Assembly (NCBI GenBank): GCA_947062675.1
Contig: CAMSQM010000009.1
Coordinates: forward strand, 1 to 64,000
DNA from: an uncultured Roseburia sp.
GTDB taxonomy: Bacteria > Bacillota > Clostridia > Lachnospirales > Lachnospiraceae
Direction: 5' to 3'
DNA: 64,000 nt
A model generated the notes under the pieces. The model was not told the DNA's origin, did no database searches, and worked only from the letters and a program-made list of their open reading frames with translations. Every line of letters starts with the position of its first letter. The first letter of the stretch is position 1. The position numbers and the translations under genes are program-made. Below are positions 11,398-23,604 of the stretch, one piece after another.

Positions 11398-12201
11398 TTA
11401 TGAGAGAAGCGCTTTGTCATTTGCAAATTCTTCCCCGCTCACTTTTTCAAACTGGTGCAGCAGGTCTTCCACAGTCAGTTTTTTCTTTTCTTCTCCGCGA
11501 ATGTCGAGAATGACTTTCCCCTCGTGCATCATGATCAGACGATTGCCGTGTGCGATTGCGTCTTTCATATTGTGCGTGACCATCATGGCCGTCAGGTGAT
11601 TTTCAGCGATAATCCGGTCGGAAATTTCGAGAACTTTTGCCGCGGTTTTCGGGTCGAGAGCCGCCGTGTGCTCGTCCAGGAGGAGCAGCCTTGGTTTTTT
11701 GATGGCGGCCATTAAGAGGGTGATAGCCTGCCGCTGTCCGCCGGAGAGCAGCCCCACTTTGCTGGCAAGGCGGTCCTCAAGGCCAAGATCAAGCGTGGCG
11801 AGCATTCTGCGGTATTCTCCGCGCTCCTTTTTTGTGATTCCCCAGGAGAGTCCCCGGGACTCTCCGCGCCGTGCGGCGATTGCCATATTTTCCTCGATGG
11901 ACATGGTGGTGGCGGTGCCTGTCATCGGATCCTGGAAAACACGGCCCAGATATCTGGCGCGCTTGTGCTCCGAGAGGCGTGTGACATCGTCGCCGCCGAT
12001 AAAGATTTTACCGGAATCAATTGGCCAGAGGCCCGCGACGGCGTTTAAGGTGGTAGACTTTCCTGCCCCGTTGCCGCCGATCACAGTGACAAAATCCCCC
12101 TCATCCAGTGAAAGACAGACGCCGTTTAAGGCGTGTTTTTCATTGATTGTGCCGGGATGAAAAGTTTTATGAATATTATCAATTTTTAACATTTCAGCCA
12201 T
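11398..12201 (-). CDS. ABC transporter ATP-binding protein (TrpXYZ-type importer)
   Basis: 267-residue ATPase powering the permease encoded upstream. Walker A GGNGAGKST (about 41-49), signature LSGGQRQA and Walker B LLLLDEHTAALDP are clear; the Asp-Glu-His-Thr form is typical of the branched-chain/tryptophan importer group. The start overlaps the permease end by eight bases, which indicates translational coupling. Third gene of an SBP-permease-ATPase operon read from the promoter at 14304-14332. Confidence 0.92.
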   Translation of the reverse strand: MAEMLKIDNIHKTFHPGTINEKHALNGVCLSLDEGDFVTVIGGNGAGKSTTLNAVAGLWPIDSGKIFIGGDDVTRLSEHKRARYLGRVFQDPMTGTATTMSIEENMAIAARRGESRGLSWGITKKERGEYRRMLATLDLGLEDRLASKVGLLSGGQRQAITLLMAAIKKPRLLLLDEHTAALDPKTAAKVLEISDRIIAENHLTAMMVTHNMKDAIAHGNRLIMMHEGKVILDIRGEEKKKLTVEDLLHQFEKVSGEEFANDKALLS

Positions 12202-13138
12202 GTGCCCGCTCCTTTCCCTTATATCTGGTTTTCAGATAAGGAATCGCGAGGAAAACTGCCACAATGATTGCGGAGAAAAGCTTCAGATCGTCGGATGGAA
12301 GTTTTAACCACAGTACAATATTCATTACAATATAGTAGATAATGGCTCCCGCGATCACGGATAGCAGAGTGTAGGCAAATGCAAAATGCTTTCCGGCACA
12401 GAGCTTTCCAAAAACAACCTCACCGATGATGACGGCGGCCAGGCCGATGACGATTGCCCCGCGTCCCATGTTGACGTCAGCCGCGCCCTGAAACTGTGCG
12501 TAGAGACCGCCGGAAAGTCCGACGAGACCGTTTGAGAGCATCAGGGCAAGAACAGTGTGAAAATTTGTGCTGATGCCCTGGGCGCGCGCCATCTGCTGAT
12601 TGCAGCCTGTCGCGCGGATCGCGTGTCCCTGCTCTGTTCCGAAATACCAGTACAGAATCGCGACGGTGACAACACAGAACAGGATGCTGGTGGTAAACAC
12701 CTGAATCCGTGTGCCGGTGGAATCCGAGATATAGCGGAGCGAGATGACCAGCGGATACTTGTCCACACTGACGGCCTGGTTTGAGCGGCCCATGATGTTG
12801 AGATTGACCGAGTACAGGGAAATCTGTGTGAGAATGCCCGCAAGAATTCCTGGAATTCCGAGCGCAGTATGGAGCATTCCGGTGACAAAACCGGCTGCCA
12901 TCCCGGCGATAAAAGCAAAAATGAGCGCAGACCACGGATTCATGCCTCCACGGATCAGCATGACTGCGACTGCACCTCCGGTTGCAAGGGAACCGTCCAC
13001 GGTCAGATCGGCAAAATCAAGCAGACGGAACGTAATATAAACACCCAGGGCCATAAGTCCCCACACAAGGCCCTGCGCGAAAGCGCCGGGCATTGAGCGG
13101 AGCAGGGCCATGGGATCCAGTGACATCAGAATCGCCAT
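12194..13138 (-). CDS. ABC transporter permease (TrpXYZ-type)
   Basis: 314-residue integral membrane protein with about eight to nine hydrophobic segments and conserved short motifs of the branched-chain amino-acid permease superfamily, such as FADLTVDGS (about 44) and GLSGGLYAQFQG. It forms the membrane channel for the substrate handed over by the lipoprotein. Lies 16 bases after the lipoprotein gene and overlaps the ATPase gene. The substrate cannot be read from the sequence; tryptophan, tyrosine or other small ligands are possible. Confidence 0.9.
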   Translation of the reverse strand: MAILMSLDPMALLRSMPGAFAQGLVWGLMALGVYITFRLLDFADLTVDGSLATGGAVAVMLIRGGMNPWSALIFAFIAGMAAGFVTGMLHTALGIPGILAGILTQISLYSVNLNIMGRSNQAVSVDKYPLVISLRYISDSTGTRIQVFTTSILFCVVTVAILYWYFGTEQGHAIRATGCNQQMARAQGISTNFHTVLALMLSNGLVGLSGGLYAQFQGAADVNMGRGAIVIGLAAVIIGEVVFGKLCAGKHFAFAYTLLSVIAGAIIYYIVMNIVLWLKLPSDDLKLFSAIIVAVFLAIPYLKTRYKGKERAHG

Positions 13139-13154
13139 AAGAACCCCCAGTCAG

Positions 13155-14249
13155 TTATTCTGCACCGATGGCAGTATAATCGTCGGGAACTGTGAGATTT
13201 AACTTTTCACAGATTTCCGCATTGTATTTTTTTGTGACAGTCGGAGCATATCTGATCTCCATCGTGGAGATATCCGCGCCGTTTTCGAGGATGTCGTAGG
13301 CCATCTCGCCTGCGGTGTAGCCGATATCATAGTAGCTGATGGAAAGCGTTGCGGCGCCGCAGCCTCCGCAGATTCCCTCTTCACCTGCGATGATGGGAAT
13401 ACCTGCCGGGAGAGCGACATTGTTGATGGTCTCGGCATTTGCGGCCATCGTATTGTCGGTCGGTATGTACATGACATCCACGGCGGTTACCATATTCTGG
13501 ACGACAGAAGCGATATCGTTGGAATCGGCCGCGGTGAAGACCTCATAGGCAATATTGTCTTCCTCAAGGCATTTGATGAACTCGTTCGCCTGGTATTCGG
13601 AATTCGGTTCTGCGGAACAGTAGAGAATACCGACTTTCTTTACATCAGGAAACAGCTCCACAAGCATGTCCTCCTGCTCGCTGATCGGAGCAAGATCGGA
13701 AGTTCCCGAAATGTTTCTTCCCGTTGCGCCGGACCAGTCATCCATCTCGAGTGCAGTCGCATAGTCTGTGACGGACGTTCCCAGAACCGGAATTGTGCTG
13801 GTTGCCGCCGCAGCGCTCTGAAGGGAACTGGTAGCGTTTGCCAGAATCAGGCTGTAATTGCTGGAAACGAAATTATTACAGATGGTGGCGCAGTTGGCCG
13901 GTTCGCCCTGGGCATTCTGCAGGTCAAATTTCACGTTCTCCCCGAGCAGTTCGGTCAGGGCAGCCTGAAAACCTTCGGTAGCCTCGTCGAGGGCGGGATG
14001 TTCCAGCTGCTGGCAGATTCCGATGGTGTAGGATGCACCGTCGTTTCCGTCCGCGGCAGATCCGTCTCCAGGGTCACTGTCGTCTGCCGGTGTCTGTCCG
14101 TCTGCGTCCGCAGTGGAATCTGTGTTGCCGGCGGAACTGTTTCCGGAATCTTTGGAGGTACCGGAGTTGTCCGGCCCCCCGCAGGCGGACATGGAGACTG
14201 TCATTGCTGCTGCCATAAGAATCGAAACGATTCTGGTTCTCTTTTTCAT
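13155..14249 (-). CDS. ABC transporter substrate-binding lipoprotein (ABC_sub_bind family)
   Basis: Extracytoplasmic receptor, 364 residues from ATG 14249, which has an AAAGGAGGAG site. A signal peptide ends in SMSAC with Cys23 as the lipidated residue, followed by a Ser/Asp/Gly-rich linker (about 25-75) and a periplasmic-binding fold starting at YTIGICQQLEHPALDE. That opening and the later VKKVGILYCSAEPNSE and AGEEGICGGCGAATLS segments are characteristic of the TrpX/YtrX-like family. The longer frame from 14273 adds eight residues that overlap the ribosome site. First gene of the operon; a small hairpin touches its Shine-Dalgarno region. Confidence 0.92.
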   Translation of the reverse strand: MKKRTRIVSILMAAAMTVSMSACGGPDNSGTSKDSGNSSAGNTDSTADADGQTPADDSDPGDGSAADGNDGASYTIGICQQLEHPALDEATEGFQAALTELLGENVKFDLQNAQGEPANCATICNNFVSSNYSLILANATSSLQSAAAATSTIPVLGTSVTDYATALEMDDWSGATGRNISGTSDLAPISEQEDMLVELFPDVKKVGILYCSAEPNSEYQANEFIKCLEEDNIAYEVFTAADSNDIASVVQNMVTAVDVMYIPTDNTMAANAETINNVALPAGIPIIAGEEGICGGCGAATLSISYYDIGYTAGEMAYDILENGADISTMEIRYAPTVTKKYNAEICEKLNLTVPDDYTAIGAE

Positions 14250-14264
14250 AATCAGATACTCCTC

Positions 14265-14280
14265 CTTTAGCACACTAAAG
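14265..14280 (-). promoter_or_regulatory. Hairpin overlapping the importer's ribosome binding site
   Basis: On the minus strand the leader reads CTTTAG-TGTG-CTAAAG, running directly into GAGGAG. The 3' arm shares the AAG of the Shine-Dalgarno sequence. It could be a short translational switch or a repressor palindrome just after the transcription start. Confidence 0.4.
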
Positions 14281-14412: not shown

Positions 14413-14427
14413 AAAAAAACAGTACAT

Positions 14428-14501
14428 CGGAGCATGGCGTAGTTTGGTAGCGCGCACGGCTGGGGGCCGTGAGGTCGCAGGTTCAAATCCTGTTGCTCCG
14501 A
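14428..14501 (+). tRNA. tRNA-Pro (anticodon GGG)
   Basis: 74 bases fold into a full cloverleaf: acceptor CGGAGCA/TGCTCCG, D arm GCGTAGTTTGGTAGCGC, anticodon stem CACGG/CCGTG with loop CTGGGGG (anticodon GGG, reads CCC/CCU), T arm GCAGG-TTCAAAT-CCTGT, discriminator A. The CCA end is not encoded. It stands alone between a promoter and a strong terminator. Confidence 0.95.
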
Positions 14502-14520
14502 TTTTCATGTTACAGACGGA

Positions 14521-14598: not shown

Positions 14599-15234
14599 TC
14601 ATTCCTGTGTGGCTGCCGGCGTATGGGACATCAGAAAATTCAGTGAGCCCACCGGATTACCGGTTCCTTTTTCCAGCAGCGAGATCAGCCCCAGCAGCGT
14701 GTCCTCGGTATCCTCAATGGATGACGGGACAAGGGAATTGTCCAGTTTTACCGTAAGTACAATCAGAACGATTTCGGCCAGTGCCGCCGGATAATCAAAA
14801 TGAATTTCACCGTCCGCGATACCCTGACAGATGATCTCTGTCAGCGTCGGTTTCAGTTCAGCGATCAGATGGTTCATGTATTTCTGATGCAGTAAAGCCC
14901 GCTCCTGAACATTTGACTGCGCCGGTTCCGGCTGCTGGTTTAGGAACAGGGAAGAAGAACTCCTGCACGCCTGGAATATCATAGCCATGCGCGTGAACGG
15001 GGAGATACCGGTCTGTGCGGCCAGTTCCTTGGCGGTTTCAAGAGGTTTTTCGTAGCTGCGCTCTACCAGGGCTTCAAAGATCGCTTCTTTCGAGGGAAAA
15101 TAGTAATAGATACTTCCCTTTCCGATCCCGGCGGTCTGGGCGATTTCGCTGACAGAAATCGTCTGCAGATTTCTGCCCCCGAGCAGCGTTTCAAGTGCAT
15201 TCAGAATTTTGTCATATTTTACGTTATTCGGCAT
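14599..15234 (-). CDS. TetR/AcrR family regulator of the adjacent acyl-ligase operon
   Basis: 211-residue regulator with the TetR DNA-binding helix-turn-helix at 20-55 (ISVSEIAQTAGIGKGSIYYYF). The C-terminal ligand domain is variable, as expected. It is divergent from the hydrolase/condensation/carrier/ligase operon, and two identical 11-bp palindromes sit over that operon's promoter. It most likely represses them and responds to a product or substrate of the pathway. Fatty acyl-CoA or a lipid is a reasonable guess for the effector because the operon activates acyl groups. The ribosome site is weak. Confidence 0.92.
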   Translation of the reverse strand: MPNNVKYDKILNALETLLGGRNLQTISVSEIAQTAGIGKGSIYYYFPSKEAIFEALVERSYEKPLETAKELAAQTGISPFTRMAMIFQACRSSSSLFLNQQPEPAQSNVQERALLHQKYMNHLIAELKPTLTEIICQGIADGEIHFDYPAALAEIVLIVLTVKLDNSLVPSSIEDTEDTLLGLISLLEKGTGNPVGSLNFLMSHTPAATQE

Positions 15235-15282
15235 TTCTGCAGGTCAACCCCTTAAGTAAATTTCATCCGTAAAGACCTTTTT

Positions 15283-15312
15283 ATTATAGCATGCATAATG
15301 TATGAGCGGCAA
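15283..15312 (-). promoter_or_regulatory. Promoter of the tetR gene
   Basis: Minus strand TTGCCG, 18 bases, TATAAT. The start point is about 60 bases from the first operator, so autoregulation would need looping or weak occlusion. Confidence 0.5.
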
Positions 15313-15370
15313 TTGGTAAAAACGGACAGAAAATACTTCCGCAAAGCCGCAAATTTTGACCTTCAGAGTG

Positions 15371-15399
15371 TTGACCAATGGTCGATTAAGTGTTAATGT
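15371..15399 (+). promoter_or_regulatory. Promoter of the hydrolase/condensation/ACP/ligase operon
   Basis: TTGACC (15371-15376), 17 bases, TAATGT (15394-15399). The -35 element lies inside the first TetR-type palindrome and the second palindrome covers about +11 to +21, the classic layout for repression. Confidence 0.65.
15373..15383. promoter_or_regulatory. TetR operator 1
   Basis: GACCAATGGTC, a perfect 5+1+5 palindrome embedded in TTGACCAATGGTCGA. An identical core recurs 44 bases downstream, about four helical turns away. Confidence 0.75.
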
Positions 15400-15416
15400 A
15401 TAAGAAAACAAGCACT

Positions 15417-15427
15417 GACCAATGGTC
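15417..15427. promoter_or_regulatory. TetR operator 2
   Basis: Second exact GACCAATGGTC, flanked CT...GAA, just before the hydrolase ribosome site (GGAGG at 15444-15448). Confidence 0.75.
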
Positions 15428-15452
15428 GAAATTAGTTGTAAATGGAGGTTTT

Positions 15453-16394
15453 ATGAAAGGGTTTGTAAAAGCGATGCTGGCCGTGGGAGCAGTTGTGGCC
15501 GCGGGGGCCGGGGAGACAATTTATTTCTACCGGCGCACGATGAAACGGAATGAGGCGAAAACGGAGCGCACCATGAAGATGGCGGGAACGGACTGGTCGC
15601 AGTATGCCGGTTTTATCGGAGAGAGGAAGAACCGGATGCTTGCGCACCCGCACAGCGACGTCTGGATACAGTCGGAGGACGGGCTGAAGCTGCATGCAAC
15701 CTGGTTTCCGTGCGGGGATGAGAAAAAGGCAGTCGTGTGCTTCCACGGATATACGAGCCAGGGGATGAGCGATTACATCGCCCTTTCGGATTATTATCTG
15801 AAAAACGGCTTTTCCATGCTTCTGGTGGATGAGCGTGCGCACGGGCAGAGTGAGGGGGAGTATATCGGTTTCGGGTGTCTGGACCGGAGAGACGCGCTCT
15901 GCTGGCTGAAATGGGTGACCGGGCGCTGCGGGGAAGAGGTGCAGGTTCTGCTCCACGGAACATCGATGGGAGGGGCTGCCGTGCTGATGGCGAGCGGGCT
16001 TTCGCTCCCGCCGCAGGTAAAAGGGATTATTTCGGACTGCGGATTTACATCTCCGAAGGAGGTGTTTACCCATGTGCTGCATTCAATGTACCATCTTCCG
16101 GCGTTTCCGGTTATTCCGGCTGCAGATTTTATCAACCGGAAAGCTGCCGGATACGGCATGGACGAATGCAATGCGGCGCGGGAGGTGAGAAAGGCGAAGG
16201 TGCCGATCCTGATGATTCACGGGGACGCGGATACATTTGTGCCGTCTGAAATGTGTGAGCGGATTTATGCGAACATTGCCTCGCCGAAACAGAAACTGAT
16301 CGTAAAGGGAGCTGCGCACGCGGAGAGTTATTATAAAGATACTGAAGCGTATGAGCGCGCAATGGATGAATTAATCGGAGGTGTTGTGAAATGA
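15453..16394 (+). CDS. Membrane-anchored alpha/beta hydrolase
   Basis: 313 residues. An N-terminal hydrophobic segment (about 5-22, GFVKAMLAVGAVVAAGAG) should tether it to the membrane, with the hydrolase domain after it. The nucleophile elbow GTSMGG is near residue 168-173, an oxyanion-type HGYT lies near 97, the acid Asp is in MIHGDADTFVP and the catalytic His in GAAHAESYY. Family members are esterases, lipases or thioesterases; with a carrier protein and an acyl ligase downstream, release or trimming of an acyl product is plausible. ATG 15453 has GGAGG; the longer frame starts inside the operator region. Its stop overlaps the next start (ATGA). Confidence 0.88.
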   Translation: MKGFVKAMLAVGAVVAAGAGETIYFYRRTMKRNEAKTERTMKMAGTDWSQYAGFIGERKNRMLAHPHSDVWIQSEDGLKLHATWFPCGDEKKAVVCFHGYTSQGMSDYIALSDYYLKNGFSMLLVDERAHGQSEGEYIGFGCLDRRDALCWLKWVTGRCGEEVQVLLHGTSMGGAAVLMASGLSLPPQVKGIISDCGFTSPKEVFTHVLHSMYHLPAFPVIPAADFINRKAAGYGMDECNAAREVRKAKVPILMIHGDADTFVPSEMCERIYANIASPKQKLIVKGAAHAESYYKDTEAYERAMDELIGGVVK

Positions 16395-17794
16395 TGAAGA
16401 CGAGAAAAGGATATAAGGTATACCCGCTGACCGTGGCTCAGAAATTCCATTTTTTCTATCTGGATTTCTGCCCGAAAAAACAGGTGCTCAATATCGGCAA
16501 CAGCCTGGTGATCGAGGTGGAGCTGGATTTTGAGCAGCTGAAAAAGGCCATTTACAAGGCGTACGAGCGGTGCGAGTCCATGAGGCTGCGCTTTACACAG
16601 GACAAGGAAGGCAACTGGTATCAGTATGTGGTGGACAGGGAAGAGCGTGATATTGAATTTGTGGATTTCACGGGACAGACGGTGGAGCAGGCAGATGCCG
16701 TGATGCAGGGCTGGACGGAAGTTCCGTTTGAGCATCACGATGCGCCGCAGAACCGGATTGTCATGATAAAGCTGCCGGACGGCTACAGCGGAGTCTATAT
16801 GCTGGTGGATCATCTCACGATGGATGCGCAGTCGATCATCTGTTTTCTGAAAGATGTGATTGAGATCTACTGTAACGCGATGTATGAGGATGTGCCATAC
16901 CCGAAGGAGATGGCGTCCTATATCACGCAGCTGAAAAAGGATCTGGCATATGAGGCCGGATGCCGCGCGAAGGAGCGCGACGAAGAATTTTTCCGCAAAC
17001 TGATTGAATCCTCGGAGCCTGTATATAATGGTGTTGACGGCACGAGGCGGCTTGACGAGGCGCGGGAGCGCACCGGAAATCCGGATGTGCGCGCGGCGCT
17101 TAACGTGTCGGACTCGGTGGAATCCGCCCTGGATATTTTCCATCTCGAGGCGGAGCCGACGAAACGGCTGATGGATTTCTGCGAAAAATATCACGTATCG
17201 CTGGTCTGTCTGCTGATGATGGGACTGCGCACCTATTTCCAGAAAATGAACGGGCATGACGATGTGTCGATCAATACGGCGATTGCGCGAAGGGCGACGC
17301 TACAGGAGAAAAAATCGGGCGGTACCCGCATTCACTCCTTCCCGTTCCGCACCATTCTGTCCACGGACAGGACTTTCCTTGAAGGGATATATGAGATGCG
17401 CGACAGGCAGAATGAGCTGTTCCGCCATGCAAATTATGATCCGGTGGCCTATTTTGCACACCGCGGCAGGACATATCCGGCAGAGCCGGGAGCTACCTAC
17501 GAGCCGATGTCGCTGACGTATCAGCCGCTGACCTTAAAGGAGAAAGGGCTTGACAAGCTCGGGGACATCCGCTACCGTACAAAATGGTACCCGAACGGGG
17601 CGACAACCCAGGCGATGTACCTGACTGTGATGCACCGCTCAGACGATAACGGTCTTGATTTTAACTTTGAACATCAGATAAAAGCAGTTTCGCGTGACCA
17701 GCTGGAATACTTTTACTATTATCTCTGCAAAATTATGTTCAAAGGGATTGAAGATCCGGAACAGACCATCGGCGCCATTATAAATGCGGTATAG
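16391..17794 (+). CDS. Stand-alone condensation-domain-like acyltransferase
   Basis: 467 residues resembling NRPS condensation domains and related CoA/carrier-dependent acyltransferases. The opening YPLTVAQKFHFF and the motif DHLTMDA at 140-146 match the HHxxxDG active site; the first His is Asp, but the catalytic second His (141) and the structural Asp (145) are kept. It would join an acyl or aminoacyl group on the carrier protein to an amine or alcohol. It overlaps the hydrolase gene by four bases and precedes the carrier gene by 21. A lone C protein beside a lone T and a lone A protein suggests a dissociated one-module system. Confidence 0.82.
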   Translation: MMKTRKGYKVYPLTVAQKFHFFYLDFCPKKQVLNIGNSLVIEVELDFEQLKKAIYKAYERCESMRLRFTQDKEGNWYQYVVDREERDIEFVDFTGQTVEQADAVMQGWTEVPFEHHDAPQNRIVMIKLPDGYSGVYMLVDHLTMDAQSIICFLKDVIEIYCNAMYEDVPYPKEMASYITQLKKDLAYEAGCRAKERDEEFFRKLIESSEPVYNGVDGTRRLDEARERTGNPDVRAALNVSDSVESALDIFHLEAEPTKRLMDFCEKYHVSLVCLLMMGLRTYFQKMNGHDDVSINTAIARRATLQEKKSGGTRIHSFPFRTILSTDRTFLEGIYEMRDRQNELFRHANYDPVAYFAHRGRTYPAEPGATYEPMSLTYQPLTLKEKGLDKLGDIRYRTKWYPNGATTQAMYLTVMHRSDDNGLDFNFEHQIKAVSRDQLEYFYYYLCKIMFKGIEDPEQTIGAIINAV

Positions 17795-17815
17795 ACAGAA
17801 AGGAGAATGCAGGAT

Positions 17816-18049
17816 ATGTTTGAAAAACTGGCAGATATTATAGTGAATTATGTGGAAGTGGACAGGGCGGCGATCCGGCCGGAATCCCGTTTTATGGAGG
17901 ATCTCGGGTTTACCTCATTTGATTTTATGAGTATGCTCGGCGAGCTCGAGGATGAATTTGAGACTGAAATTGATCAGCAGGAGGCTGCGGGCATCCGCAC
18001 CGTGCAGGAAGCGGCAGATTACCTGGAGAAGCTGACGAAAGAAGCATAG
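17816..18049 (+). CDS. Acyl/peptidyl carrier protein
   Basis: 77-residue acidic four-helix carrier. The phosphopantetheine site is Ser34 in EDLGFTSFDF, a variant of the usual LGxDSL. ATG 17816 is preferred because AAAGGAG lies ten bases upstream; the in-frame ATG 17807 is only two bases from it. Between condensation and ligase genes, it is the tethering partner of both. No phosphopantetheinyl transferase is encoded nearby, so a housekeeping Sfp/AcpS enzyme must modify it. Confidence 0.9.
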   Translation: MFEKLADIIVNYVEVDRAAIRPESRFMEDLGFTSFDFMSMLGELEDEFETEIDQQEAAGIRTVQEAADYLEKLTKEA

Positions 18050-18086
18050 GGAAAAGATTATCACAGGGAAAGGTACGGTGTCTTAA

Positions 18087-19595
18087 ATGGTCTGTGGGAC
18101 AATTCGTGAGATCCTGACGGGGGCGGAGCAGCGCTTCGGCGCGGAGGACGCCATCCGCTATAAAAAGAAGAAAGATGAGACAGAGGCGAAGACATACACG
18201 CAGTTAAAGGAAGACAGCGAACATTTTTCAGCGGCGCTGGCGGCGCTCGGGGAGCAGGGGAGTCATATCGCCATAACCGGGGCAACTTCCTATCCGTGGC
18301 TGGTATCCTATTTTGGCACGGTAAACAGCGGCAGCGTTGCCGTGCCGCTGGATGTCTCCCTTCCAGCGGAAGAAATGTGCGAGCTGATTGACCGGGCGGA
18401 TGTGACGACGTTTGTTTTTGACGGCCTGCGCGCGGATGTCGCCGCGATCGCGGGGGAACGATGCCCGAAGTTAAAGTACCTTATCTCCATGCAGCAGGAA
18501 GAGAGTGATAAAGATACTTTATCTTTTGAGGCGCTGCTGCGGGAACACAGAGAGGGGTTTGACTATGCACCGCAGCCTGAGCAGCTGTGCACGATCATGT
18601 TCACCTCCGGCACAACGGGAAAGAGCAAGGGCGTGATGCTGACGCACCGCAACCTGGCTGAAAACGCCACCTGCCTGGATATGAAAATTCCGGAGCGGAC
18701 GGTGATACTTACGGTACTTCCGATTCACCACGCCTACTGTCTTTCAATGGATATTCTCAAGGGCATTTCGCTGGGCAGCGTTATCTGCATCAACGACTCC
18801 CTGATCCGGGTGGCGAAGAATATTAAACTGTTTGAGCCGGAGATGATTCTGATGGTGCCGCTGATGATTGAGACGCTCGCAAAGAAGCTGGAAGAGACGT
18901 CCTGGCTTCCGCCCGCCATTGTGAAGGGCAAAGTATTCGGAAAGCAGTTTCACACGATCTGCAGCGGCGGCGCATATTTAAACCCAGCGTATCTGGAGTT
19001 GTTTGAGAAATACGGAATCACGATTCTTCAGGGTTACGGGATGACGGAGTGCGCCCCGGTGATCAGCAACAATGTGAGCTGGAATATCCGGAAAGACTCG
19101 GTGGGGCAGCTTCTGCCAAACTGCGAGGCGAAAACCGTGGACGGAGAACTCTGGGTCCGCGGCAGCAGCGTGATGCAGGGGTATTACAAAATGCCGGAAG
19201 AGACGGCGGATGCCTTAAAGGACGGATGGCTTGTCACCGGGGATCTCGGCTATGTGGATGAGGAGCGGTTTGTTTATCTGACCGGCAGGAAGAAGAACCT
19301 TATCATCACGAAAAACGGCGAAAATGTTTCACCGGAAGAAGTGGAGAACAGGATCGGCCTGCAGCGTCTTGTGCAGGAAATTCTTGTGCGTGAGAGCGAG
19401 GGCGTGATCGAAGCTGAGATTTTTCCCGATTACGAGTACGCAAAGAAAAAGAGGATTAAGGATATCGGGCGGGAGCTGCAGCAGATTATTGATGATTACA
19501 ATCTCAGCGTGCCCGCGCACCGGAAAGTATACCGCCTGAAAGTGCGGGAGACGGAATTTGAAAAAACGCCGTCTAAGAAAATTAAACGGTATTAG
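18087..19595 (+). CDS. AMP-forming acyl/amino-acid ligase (ANL superfamily)
   Basis: 502 residues, single adenylation enzyme. Motifs: FTSGTTGKSKG (A3, about 172-182), GYGMTE (A5, about 316), TGDLGY (A7, about 384), GRKKNLIITKNGENVSPEEVE (A8 hinge, split at the Asn) and the A10 lysine in PSKKIKRY at the very C-terminus. It activates a carboxylate with ATP and loads it on the upstream carrier protein. It resembles long-chain fatty acid ligases more than amino-acid A domains, but specificity cannot be read reliably. Last gene of the operon, with a terminator 30 bases on. Confidence 0.9.
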   Translation: MVCGTIREILTGAEQRFGAEDAIRYKKKKDETEAKTYTQLKEDSEHFSAALAALGEQGSHIAITGATSYPWLVSYFGTVNSGSVAVPLDVSLPAEEMCELIDRADVTTFVFDGLRADVAAIAGERCPKLKYLISMQQEESDKDTLSFEALLREHREGFDYAPQPEQLCTIMFTSGTTGKSKGVMLTHRNLAENATCLDMKIPERTVILTVLPIHHAYCLSMDILKGISLGSVICINDSLIRVAKNIKLFEPEMILMVPLMIETLAKKLEETSWLPPAIVKGKVFGKQFHTICSGGAYLNPAYLELFEKYGITILQGYGMTECAPVISNNVSWNIRKDSVGQLLPNCEAKTVDGELWVRGSSVMQGYYKMPEETADALKDGWLVTGDLGYVDEERFVYLTGRKKNLIITKNGENVSPEEVENRIGLQRLVQEILVRESEGVIEAEIFPDYEYAKKKRIKDIGRELQQIIDDYNLSVPAHRKVYRLKVRETEFEKTPSKKIKRY

Positions 19596-20083: not shown

Positions 20084-21931
20084 ATGAGTATGAGAAAAAC
20101 GGGAGTGAGACAAATGATACTGGGAGCATTGGGCGGCGTGATGTGCAGTGTGAATATAATGGGCTGTTATCCGCTGGTGCCGGCATATTTTGCCGCGCTT
20201 TATCTGGAAAACGTCAGCGGATTTCTGCTGATGGGCTGCATGTACATAGGAATGCTGTTCGGGATGCCGCTTACTGCGGGAATCAAATACGCGGTTGTTC
20301 TGCCTGTCATCATTGCGGCTGTCAGGGTCACGGTATGGGCCAACGACGGGTGTCCCGCGTTTCTGGCGGGCATTATGGCCGCAGTTTCCACGGTAATCCT
20401 GTCTTTCGGAGGAAGTCTTCTGGAATGGAGGGACCAGCCGGGGATGGCGGCAGTTTTTCTGGAGGGAGCGTTTGTGTTCGGAGCGGTTGTTCTGTTAAAC
20501 CGTCTGCTGCACACAGCTCTGGAGTGGAAACCGCAGCCGCCGGAGGAGGTGACGCATGTGGAGCACGGAAACGGGGAAAAGCTGAAGAATTATGCGGAAT
20601 CATTTCAGGGGCTTTCCAGGATTTTTCAGTCCATGAGTACCGGCCAGGGACGGTATGCTGCGGACGAGCTCGGGCAGGTGCAGAATGAACTGACGGGAAA
20701 GCTGTGCACTTCCTGCGATTCGTGCGCGGTCTGCTGGGAGCGGGATAACGCGCCGCTGTACGGCGTACTCTCCCAGATGCTTACCTCGATCTGGCATGCA
20801 GGGATTCCCGGGCGGGACGCGGAGGAAAAGCTGGAAAAATACTGTAAGAGAAGCCGCGATATGGTGGAGGAGGCTGTCCATGTATTTGAGCGCGTCAGCT
20901 TAAACCGTGCCTGGTATAACCGTCTGCTGGAGAACCGGCAGGTGATCGCGGAACAACTCGACGCGATGGCATATATTATGCAGGACTGTGCCAGGGAGGA
21001 GCGTGTTCTTGACGGGGAGCGGCGCCATGTGCTCTCAGAGATACGCTACCGCGCAAAGGAGAGCGGTATCGCGGTCGGGGACATGCATCTGGTGGAAACG
21101 GTGGATGGATATCTGAAACTGGAGGCGACCCTGCGCAGCAGGGCGGGGGGATGTGTGTCGGCAAAATCATTTCTGGCCGCGGTCTCTCATGCCCTTGGGA
21201 AGAAAATGCGGATGGCGCCGGACGCCCGCACGTTTATCTCAAAAGAACCCTGTGCGTTTCTGCTGTATGAGGATACCGGATACCGCAATGTGCAGGGAAT
21301 TGCGCGGATGAAAAAAGACGGAGCCCAGATCTCTGGGGACAATTTTTCATTCCTGGAACTGGAGCGCGGAGAGCTTCTGATGGGGCTTTCGGACGGGATG
21401 GGGTCGGGGAGCACGGCGTGCCGGGAGAGCGAGATGGTGCTGGATCTCGTTGAGCGTTTTCTGGAGGCCGGATTTTCCGTGGAGACGGCGGTGCGCATGA
21501 TGAATTCCGCGATGGTGATGAAAGGAGAGGATGATCTCTATTCCACCGTGGATCTGTGCAGGATCAATCTCTACAGTGGGAAGGCCAGGCTGTATAAAAT
21601 CGGGGCCGCCGCGACGTTTATTAAGCGCGCGGATTCCGTGGAGTGTATCGCCTCCGGCAGTCTTCCGGTCGGAGCCAATGCCAGGGTGGAGATAGAAATG
21701 CAGGATGTGCAGCTTGCAGAGGGAGATTTTGTTGTCATGGTGACGGACGGTGTGTTAGAATATCTGCATGTTCCGAAGCCGGAGGAGACAATGCAGGAAG
21801 TAATAGAGAGCATTCGCACAAACAATCCGGGCATTCTCGCCAAGCGGATTATGGAACGTGTGATGCTGTTTACCGGGGGAAGGGTGCAGGATGACATGAC
21901 GGTTCTGGCAGCCTGTATCTGGGAGAAGTAG
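20084..21931 (+). CDS. spoIIE: Stage II sporulation protein E, PP2C phosphatase
   Basis: Dephosphorylates SpoIIAA at the polar septum and so frees sigma-F in the forespore. 615 residues from ATG 20084 (GAGGAGA site), shorter than the roughly 830 of Bacillus. The N-terminus has about five hydrophobic segments within 150 residues instead of ten. A regulatory region follows, then the PP2C domain from about residue 410 with GLSDGMGSG (about 436) and VMVTDGVLE metal-binding aspartates. A Cys-rich patch (CTSCDSCAVCWE, about 207) is a frequent feature of clostridial homologues. Followed by tilS-hpt-ftsH as in Bacillus. Confidence 0.93.
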   Translation: MSMRKTGVRQMILGALGGVMCSVNIMGCYPLVPAYFAALYLENVSGFLLMGCMYIGMLFGMPLTAGIKYAVVLPVIIAAVRVTVWANDGCPAFLAGIMAAVSTVILSFGGSLLEWRDQPGMAAVFLEGAFVFGAVVLLNRLLHTALEWKPQPPEEVTHVEHGNGEKLKNYAESFQGLSRIFQSMSTGQGRYAADELGQVQNELTGKLCTSCDSCAVCWERDNAPLYGVLSQMLTSIWHAGIPGRDAEEKLEKYCKRSRDMVEEAVHVFERVSLNRAWYNRLLENRQVIAEQLDAMAYIMQDCAREERVLDGERRHVLSEIRYRAKESGIAVGDMHLVETVDGYLKLEATLRSRAGGCVSAKSFLAAVSHALGKKMRMAPDARTFISKEPCAFLLYEDTGYRNVQGIARMKKDGAQISGDNFSFLELERGELLMGLSDGMGSGSTACRESEMVLDLVERFLEAGFSVETAVRMMNSAMVMKGEDDLYSTVDLCRINLYSGKARLYKIGAAATFIKRADSVECIASGSLPVGANARVEIEMQDVQLAEGDFVVMVTDGVLEYLHVPKPEETMQEVIESIRTNNPGILAKRIMERVMLFTGGRVQDDMTVLAACIWEK

Positions 21932-22080: not shown

Positions 22081-23604
22081 ATGGAGGAAGAGGTATTCCG
22101 GAAGATACGGCAGGAAGGGCTGATAGAAGAAGGAGACCTTGTGATTGCGGGACTTTCCGGCGGCGCGGATTCGGTGTGTATGCTGCTTCTGCTCGCCGGA
22201 TACCGGGAAAAAATCGGATTTTCACTTTGCGCGGTACATGTCGAGCATGGGATCAGAGGAGAGGAGAGCAGGAGGGATGCCGGTTTTGCGGAAGCGCTAT
22301 GCAAAAAACACGGGATTTCCTGCCGTACGTTTTATGCTGATGTGCCAGGGTATGCCAGACGGTGCGGGGTGGGGCTGGAGGAGGCTGCGCGCGCGCTGCG
22401 GCACGACTGCTTTGCACAGGAAGCCGTCCGGCAGAGAGCAGGGAAGACGGAGGGCGGGATCCGGATCGCGCTGGCGCACCATGCCGGTGATCTGGCTGAA
22501 ACGGTACTGTTTCAGCTGGTGCGCGGAAGCGGTTTTGCGGGGCTTGACGGGATGCGGTCAGAGAGGACTTATCCGGGCGGTGCCGTGCTGATACGTCCGC
22601 TGCTTATGTGTACGCGCGGCGAAATTGAGGCATATCTTAAGGCATGCGGGCAGGAATACTGTGAGGACAGCACGAACATGGACGTGGCGTACAGCCGCAA
22701 CCGTCTGCGGCACAGGGTTCTTCCGGAGCTTACGCTTGTTAACAGCCGGGCGGTGGAGCACATTGCCCGGACAGCCGGGCTGATGGGGGAGCTGGCGGAT
22801 TATTTTGACTGGCAGGCCGCTAAGCTGCTGCCGCTTGTGTGCAGCGGAGAGGCGGAGGACTGTATGATTTACAGGAAAGTTTTTTTGGAATATCCGCCCG
22901 TCCTCCAGAGGGAGCTTCTGCTGCGGATCCTTGCGCGCGCGGCGGGCAGCCGCAGAGATCTGGGCACAGTACATGTCGAGGCGGTCAGGGAGCTGTTCGC
23001 AAGCCAGAACGGGCGGTATCTCACGCTGCCATACCGCCTGCGGGCAGAGCGCGTGTACGACGGCGTGCGTATCCGGAGAGACGAGGGGGAGCGGCGCGTG
23101 CTTTTGGGAGTAAAGGAGGCGGATAAAGCGGGAAAGCGGCAGGTACCCGGCAAAGCCGGGGAGGCAGTGGAATTTGAGGTGACGCAGGAGACACTTTCCC
23201 GCATGGAGCAGGGACAGGAATTCGTGGTAGCGCTGCCGGACGGGAAGATGTATATGAAGATCTTTCCGTTTTGTGGAAAAATGGACGAAATTCCGAAAAA
23301 AAAGTATACGAAATGGCTGAATTATGATAAAATTAAAGGCAGATTGCAGATTCGCGGCAGACGGCCGGGCGATTTTCTGGTGACCGACGACCAGGGGCAT
23401 ACCAGAAAGCTCAGGGAATATTTTATCGGGGAAAAGATTCCGCAAAGCATCCGGGACGGCATCTGGCTTCTTGCGGAAGCGTCACATATTCTCTGGGTAA
23501 CGGGCGGACGCATCAGCGCTGGCTGTAAGATAGAAGAACACACAGGAAAAATTCTCGAAGTACGGATCACTGGAGGAAGCTATTATGAGGATCAAAAAGA
23601 TTAA
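22081..23604 (+). CDS. tilS: tRNA(Ile)-lysidine synthetase
   Basis: Modifies C34 of tRNA-Ile(CAU) with lysine so that it reads AUA; essential. The N-type PP-loop SGGADS is near residue 26-31, and the middle and C-terminal TilS domains follow (RGRRPGDFL and KLREYFIGEKIP near 430-460 contact the tRNA acceptor end). 507 residues. The last 20 bases overlap hpt in another frame, which couples the two. Confidence 0.95.
   Translation: MEEEVFRKIRQEGLIEEGDLVIAGLSGGADSVCMLLLLAGYREKIGFSLCAVHVEHGIRGEESRRDAGFAEALCKKHGISCRTFYADVPGYARRCGVGLEEAARALRHDCFAQEAVRQRAGKTEGGIRIALAHHAGDLAETVLFQLVRGSGFAGLDGMRSERTYPGGAVLIRPLLMCTRGEIEAYLKACGQEYCEDSTNMDVAYSRNRLRHRVLPELTLVNSRAVEHIARTAGLMGELADYFDWQAAKLLPLVCSGEAEDCMIYRKVFLEYPPVLQRELLLRILARAAGSRRDLGTVHVEAVRELFASQNGRYLTLPYRLRAERVYDGVRIRRDEGERRVLLGVKEADKAGKRQVPGKAGEAVEFEVTQETLSRMEQGQEFVVALPDGKMYMKIFPFCGKMDEIPKKKYTKWLNYDKIKGRLQIRGRRPGDFLVTDDQGHTRKLREYFIGEKIPQSIRDGIWLLAEASHILWVTGGRISAGCKIEEHTGKILEVRITGGSYYEDQKD

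Follow-up and report, generated by a model that had tools for sequence, protein, structure and literature searches.

What is made by a gene block in which a divergent TetR gene faces genes for a hydrolase, a lone condensation protein (C), a lone acyl carrier protein (ACP) and a lone AMP-forming ligase (A), and does this set belong to a described pathway? The block lies within the 64,000-nucleotide stretch of DNA analysed here (the window), and its coordinates and Pfam matches agree with an earlier note, which had described a TetR gene diverging from hydrolase, C (DHLTMDA), ACP and A genes:

14599–15234, minus strand: tetR, TetR-family regulator (Pfam TetR_N 1.5e-14, TetR_C_39 2.8e-8), divergent from the operon
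15373–15383, no strand: proposed operator 1, GACCAATGGTC, read directly; the pair is conserved in relatives
15417–15427, no strand: proposed operator 2, GACCAATGGTC, 44 bases from operator 1
15453–16394, plus strand: alpha/beta hydrolase, S33-like (Pfam Hydrolase_4 3.8e-16)
16391–17794, plus strand: condensation protein C, free-standing, FAA-type, motif DHLTMDA (Pfam Condensation 4.6e-32; match to 12KH; tree)
17816–18049, plus strand: ACP (Pfam PP-binding 5.8e-10), with an in-frame upstream ATG at 17807
18087–19595, plus strand: AMP-forming ligase A, proposed fatty acyl-ACP ligase and OaaA counterpart (Pfam AMP-binding 2.9e-63)

The hydrolase and C genes overlap by 4 bases, the C–ACP gap is 21 bases with the ACP start at 17816 (12 bases with the ATG at 17807), and the ACP–A gap is 37 bases, much as the earlier note had it (overlaps or short gaps of 21–37 bases). 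All five frames (tetR, hydrolase, C, ACP and A) are stop-free, and dN/dS relative to the nearest relatives (L002 and L003) is 0.05–0.09 in the nine of ten gene comparisons that gave a value (ACP against L002 gave none), values that are rough given that dS is near saturation. Because dN/dS is low and the block recurs across Lachnospiraceae, which other neighbouring families do not, the five-gene block is not a chance arrangement. A tRNA-Pro gene (anticodon ggg; 14427–14502), the sole tRNA detected in the window, adjoins the end of tetR, and beyond it lies an ABC importer set (ATPase, permease and ABC_sub_bind protein by Pfam; 11398–14273), which is not conserved next to the cassette among the relatives examined, where the ATPase alone had matches, all of them distant. 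Downstream of the operon, Pfam identifies a SpoIIE-like phosphatase (20084–21931) followed by TilS (22081–23604).

The condensation protein gives the clearest pointer to function. It is a single-domain protein of 467 aa, homologous to the free-standing OaaC; among solved structures its best match is PDB 12KH (E = 1.7e-113, residues 9–466, ~40% identity), followed by the next solved C domain at 1.6e-6, and 12KH was confirmed to be the OaaC structure of PMC13142362. The Oaa pathway (OaaA, OaaACP and OaaC) is that of Coprococcus eutactus: OaaA loads a fatty acid onto OaaACP, and OaaC transfers the acyl chain to aminovaleric acid or GABA in free form; oleoyl aminovaleric acid is the product of the pathway (PMC13142362). 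The window motif DHLTMDA fits the published fatty acid amide (FAA) pattern (D/H)HxxxD(S/A/G), the last position of which is reported as Ser in 42% and Ala in 36% (PMC13142362); in our data, the motif distribution was taken over the 124 rows described below. Separate ACP and AMP-ligase genes adjoin C, as in FAA clusters. The dissociated one-module A-T-C unit with an N-acyl product, proposed in the earlier note, is therefore supported by the OaaC homology together with the separate A and ACP genes. The same note knew of no described pathway with this set, a view that does not hold for the A/ACP/C core, which corresponds to the FAA pathway of PMC13142362; an ester product, also suggested there, is disfavoured, since the nearest characterised enzyme makes amides.

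Placement of the window protein among its relatives was based on a search that gave 148 confirmed relatives, of which 80 were kept (68–84% identity), with 43 further loci added from genomes of the family and class; with the window, these form a comparison set of 124 rows. Nine further window-type loci and the relatives G532, G568 and G402 stood outside this set, and the partial matches L124–L129 were uncounted. The rows are not independent, as they come from related species, yet no pair of C proteins is identical. Each row was assigned to the type, window or OaaC, whose reference gave its C protein the higher score; of the 124, counting the window itself, 108 are window-type and 16 OaaC-type loci. 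The tree was built from 76 of the 124 prepared rows, 25 of them a random draw from the complete cassettes; after removal of three NRPS stretches that contained stops, the outgroup was a single, very long-branched NRPS C domain. In it, the window branch (97/83) stands apart from the OaaC branch (100/100); both join L142 and a third group, with seven members, at an unresolved fork, with a warning from the program that long branches meet. Eight window-type loci (L142, L158–L162, L164 and L167; 33–51% identity) lie outside the window's branch; the branch is defined here as the remaining 100 loci (at least 55% identity), some of which the tree held.

The two types also differ in active-site residues. 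The window protein falls outside the OaaC sequence group, whose members mostly have DHRxxDS and score higher to OaaC, and it was not assigned to the Oaa subtype (aminovaleric acid acceptor). Between 98 window-like and 14 OaaC-like C proteins, 25 positions differ, each conserved within its set: the residue after the catalytic Asp is Ala in 98/98 window-like proteins and Ser in 13/14 OaaC-like proteins, and Arg follows the catalytic His in 14/14 OaaC-like versus 17/98 window-like proteins.

NCBIfam ACP models score just under or just over their cut-offs for the window ACP, which has its phosphopantetheine Ser in DLGFTSFD; among the 25 commonest patterns printed, the Ser-motif pattern matched 79 window-type ACPs, and the non-matching printed ones show the Ser by eye. 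For the ligase, the best NCBIfam model is long-chain-fatty-acid--CoA ligase PRK06187 (238.6 bits, below the cut-off of 476). The TSGTTG loop is present in 98/98 window-type A proteins of at least 450 aa; a simple motif for the catalytic lysine in the C-terminal region matched 47/98 window-type and 0/14 OaaC-type A proteins, and is uninformative either way. The gene order C-ACP-A is seen in all 14 OaaC-type loci (of 16) that have both partner genes, and in the window-type loci having both, except L142.

Comparison of gene order, a check proposed in the earlier note, showed that the four operon genes travel together. Across the 100-locus branch, the hydrolase is present in 99 loci and absent from none (undecidable at a contig end in one), and sits just upstream of C in 99/99 testable cases; A is present in 98 and absent from none (two undecidable, thus 98/98 decidable), and ACP is present in 99 and absent from one. 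TetR is present in 81, absent from 10 and undecidable in nine (81/91 decidable), and a gene for an SCP2-like protein is present in 86, absent from nine and undecidable in five. In the eight outlying loci TetR and SCP2 are absent where decidable, and the hydrolase occurs in five. The 16 OaaC-type loci have ACP and A in 14 each (both absent from two); the homologous hydrolase is present in four, absent from 11 and undecidable in one, the window kind of TetR is absent from 14 (two undecidable), and SCP2 is absent from 15 (one undecidable). A different regulator gene lies near the block in nine of these 16 loci, and the two that were scanned are TetR-family proteins with TetR_C_8, versus TetR_C_39 in the window; therefore both kinds can be TetR-controlled, by different regulators. 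When open reading frames of at least 80 codons near the block were clustered, the largest other family, one of carrier proteins, spanned 11 loci. Two OaaC-type C proteins (L140 and L141) are without ACP or ligase homologues in their 6 kb flanks. In L156 (G237) the C match is limited to residues 1–250 and merges into a partial ligase match; no ACP was found, and this cassette looks broken. At the level of genomes, a profile of 35 window-type proteins matches 42 of 299 family genomes at 1e-20 (29 with window-type scores), and the same window-type C profile matches 21 of 291 class genomes, six only as parts of longer frames.

The window TetR has a weak likeness to the fatty-acid regulator model FadR (6.8e-10; 39 bits versus a cut-off of 200). 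The two exact sites, at 15373 and 15417, are the only exact copies in the genome; the degenerate form GACYRNYRGTC has 28 sites in the genome versus 91 for its reversed control, and therefore a single site means little. GACYRNYRGTC was found in all 65 tetR–hydrolase intergenic regions (tetR and hydrolase matches 50–1200 bases apart in divergent order; the window, source of the pattern, and 64 relatives), and as a pair 43–45 bases apart in 56 of them; 50 dinucleotide shuffles gave on average 0.22 loci with a site and 0.0 with a pair. Loci with TetR (n = 81) have a pair in 65 cases, a single site in 13 and none in three (a site in 78/81), compared with a pair in three (L007, L009 and L050) and none in 14 of the window-type loci without TetR (n = 17); no OaaC-type locus has the pattern (0/16). 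L007 and L009, with the pair upstream and no TetR homologue found, count against the TetR–operator link; L050 has a TetR homologue at another place and orientation. Because the sites are conserved beside tetR and track its presence, they look like operators, and we regard the pair as candidate binding sites of the window TetR. No promoter for the operon passed a sigma-70 scan, which returned TTGCCG-18-TATAAT on the minus strand (15312–15283), a predicted site that could serve tetR.

In most relatives the operators and the hydrolase are separated by a gene of ~110 codons (25 of the 65 regions printed; by count, the 86 branch loci above), two examples of which match Pfam SCP2 at 5.2e-13 and 1.2e-13. 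The operon SCP2 gene is missing from the window and from L002 and L003, its nearest relatives; together with four further relatives these three form a supported group of seven (99/98), and three of those four also lack it, the fourth (L048) being cut by a contig end. As most early members of the surrounding branch have SCP2, one loss suffices for this group, and the absence of SCP2 from L028, L042 and L155 elsewhere in the tree implies further losses. Among the 299 family genomes, an SCP2 homologue occurs in 29/29 window-type genomes (26 in the cassette) versus 38/270 others. Weighing against a tight link between SCP2 and synthesis, a tetR homologue, operator site(s) and an SCP2-like gene occur without amide-synthesis genes in L183 (6084–7331) and L187 (5181–6375), and likewise alone in L184 (1762–2971), although that contig is only 3.5 kb; these sets may be remnants or a separate use of the module. 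A candidate for an SCP2 gene that had moved within the window's genome (G000:C19, 60% identity) was rejected: it has a long acidic tail, there is no operator pattern in the surrounding 12.5 kb, and by eye it resembles the SCP2 proteins of cassette-free genomes (L188, L189 and L191). Its best match is a copy in G022 (67%), a genome whose cassette is also without an adjoining SCP2; it is probably a paralogue. An SCP2-like protein of the window's genome (L176:5443–6222) has a long, acidic and repetitive tail.

The hydrolase has a Ser171/Asp260/His289 triad that is invariant in 22 aligned homologues (22 of the 32 first listed; L010 was dropped for a stop in the matched stretch and nine others were left out). 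Its nearest solved relative is an esterase (1.8e-16), and at E up to 1e-5 a single further relative was found in the genome, at another location and with 35% identity. A hydrophobic stretch, recognised by eye, is followed at the N-terminus by RRTMKR; positive charges flanking a membrane segment tend to remain inside (the positive-inside rule), and by this rule the catalytic domain would lie on the inner face. The earlier note cast this protein as the release enzyme, but a leading role as release thioesterase was rejected: in the OaaC scheme condensation with the free amine itself sets the product free and no release enzyme is required, and most testable OaaC-type loci (11/15) have no homologous hydrolase. 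Its role could be either fatty-acid supply or product turnover.

Taken together, the operon very probably encodes Oaa-like FAA synthesis, in which a fatty acid and a small amine are joined into a hormone-like lipid amide, a level of confidence that we attach to the core reaction and not to the roles of the added genes. In the proposed scheme, A would activate a free fatty acid with ATP and load holo-ACP; C would dock the acyl-ACP and acylate a small amine that diffuses freely, a transfer that also releases the product. TetR, on two operators 44 bases apart, would repress the operon, and binding of a lipid (fatty acid or product) would lift the repression. The hydrolase, predicted to be membrane-tethered, would act on membrane lipid, freeing fatty acids for A or recycling product, and in most relatives the SCP2-like protein would carry lipid. 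Judging from the tree and gene content, the window cassette belongs to a branch apart from OaaC, probably under its own TetR control, and we regard it as a separately regulated variant of the known pathway.

PMC13142362 calls certain residues FAA-specific without naming them in the text covered here, and the amine could not be read from sequence. The identity to OaaC is low enough to leave room for another amine, and the Arg after the catalytic His could hold the aminovalerate carboxylate in OaaC-like proteins, in which case the window branch would use a different kind of amine; the 17 window-like proteins with Arg in this position argue against a simple Arg rule. With low confidence, we lean toward a carboxylate-free amine, either ethanolamine or an arylethylamine. 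No conserved amine-making gene was found in the cassette flanks across relatives. The window's genome (94.86% complete) has no match to group II decarboxylase (PF00282), present in 8/14 control genomes, and therefore tryptamine, tyramine or GABA by that route must come from outside; it has one match over cut-off to Orn/Lys/Arg decarboxylase. Two window-type loci (L068 and L071) are titled Agathobacter sp., which we take to be the genus of Eubacterium rectale. According to a review, an E. rectale cluster yields oleoylethanolamide (PMC11979265), although we found no tie between that cluster and the window's branch; other papers citing Chang et al. (2021) mention conjugates of dopamine, tyramine and tryptamine (PMC8833664) and N-acyl tryptamines (PMC11500036). 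As a tentative and rather doubtful extension, the branch may constitute a second class of gut FAA system, regulated separately, that uses an amine of its own and includes lipid-handling parts (TetR lipid sensor with double operator, membrane hydrolase and SCP2); it would sense host or dietary lipid, free fatty acid and convert it to a carboxylate-free amide (N-acylethanolamine or N-acyl arylethylamine), as an inducible lipid-to-signal converter.

The neighbourhood genes named in the preprint methods (PMC13142362) are A and carrier only, which counts against the FAA reading, and two other readings merit consideration. C might instead join the acyl chain to an amino acid, free or on another carrier, in the manner of starter C domains, for synthesis of an N-acyl amino acid or a lipopeptide-like product; FAA C domains do adjoin starter C domains in the preprint tree (PMC13142362), and A also matches an amino acid adenylation model (1.3e-37, below cut-off), but its best match is the fatty-acid ligase model, the block has one carrier, and no second module is conserved nearby, such that we consider this unlikely. 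The hydrophobic N-terminal segment of the hydrolase, the SCP2-like lipid carrier and the weakly FadR-like TetR would also suit membrane-lipid remodelling or fatty-acid salvage, with A, ACP and hydrolase recycling host or own fatty acids and C esterifying or amidating a membrane lipid headgroup. Such a function is also unlikely: the closest characterised C enzyme produces free amides (PMC13142362), and the cassette is patchy (window-type in 29/299 family genomes), unlike a core lipid function. FAA synthesis is by far the preferred reading.

The A-ACP-C core pathway was known; what is added here, beyond a single-window view, is a separate branch with its own TetR, paired operator, hydrolase and usual sixth gene, SCP2. 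The main text of the FAA enzyme paper (PMC13142362) contains no mention of hydrolase, TetR, SCP2, sterol carrier or operator. Among the literature matches listed, no title or abstract opening places a hydrolase, TetR, SCP2 or operator with FAA synthesis, although Chang et al. (2021) may cover the branch. Gut-bacterial FAAs act on host G protein-coupled receptors (PMC13142362). If the branch is lipid-inducible, TetR and its operator would offer a direct handle on the timing of signal making by gut Lachnospiraceae, and the hydrolase and SCP2 would tie fatty-acid supply or turnover to synthesis. The motif, operator and gene order also provide a marker set for producers in metagenomes.

With the FAA gene clusters of gut Clostridia reportedly described by Chang et al. 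(2021, Nat Microbiol 6:792), which we know through citing papers, the window shares a stand-alone, NRPS-like cluster; the FAA A/ACP/C pathway is credited to that study by PMC13142362. With the Oaa pathway it shares free-standing A, ACP and C, a C protein alignable nearly end to end, and the gene order C-ACP-A of OaaC-type loci having both partners. It differs in that the window side has Ala rather than the Ser of OaaC after the catalytic Asp, mostly without Arg after the His, and adds the hydrolase, the divergent TetR and its operator pair and, in most cases, SCP2; opening of a homodimer by holo-ACP has been shown for OaaC only. The starter condensation domains of lipopeptide synthetases likewise belong to the Condensation family (Pfam) and use an acyl donor; however, their acceptor is carrier-borne (PMC13142362), whereas the window C is a separate protein in a block without a second carrier.
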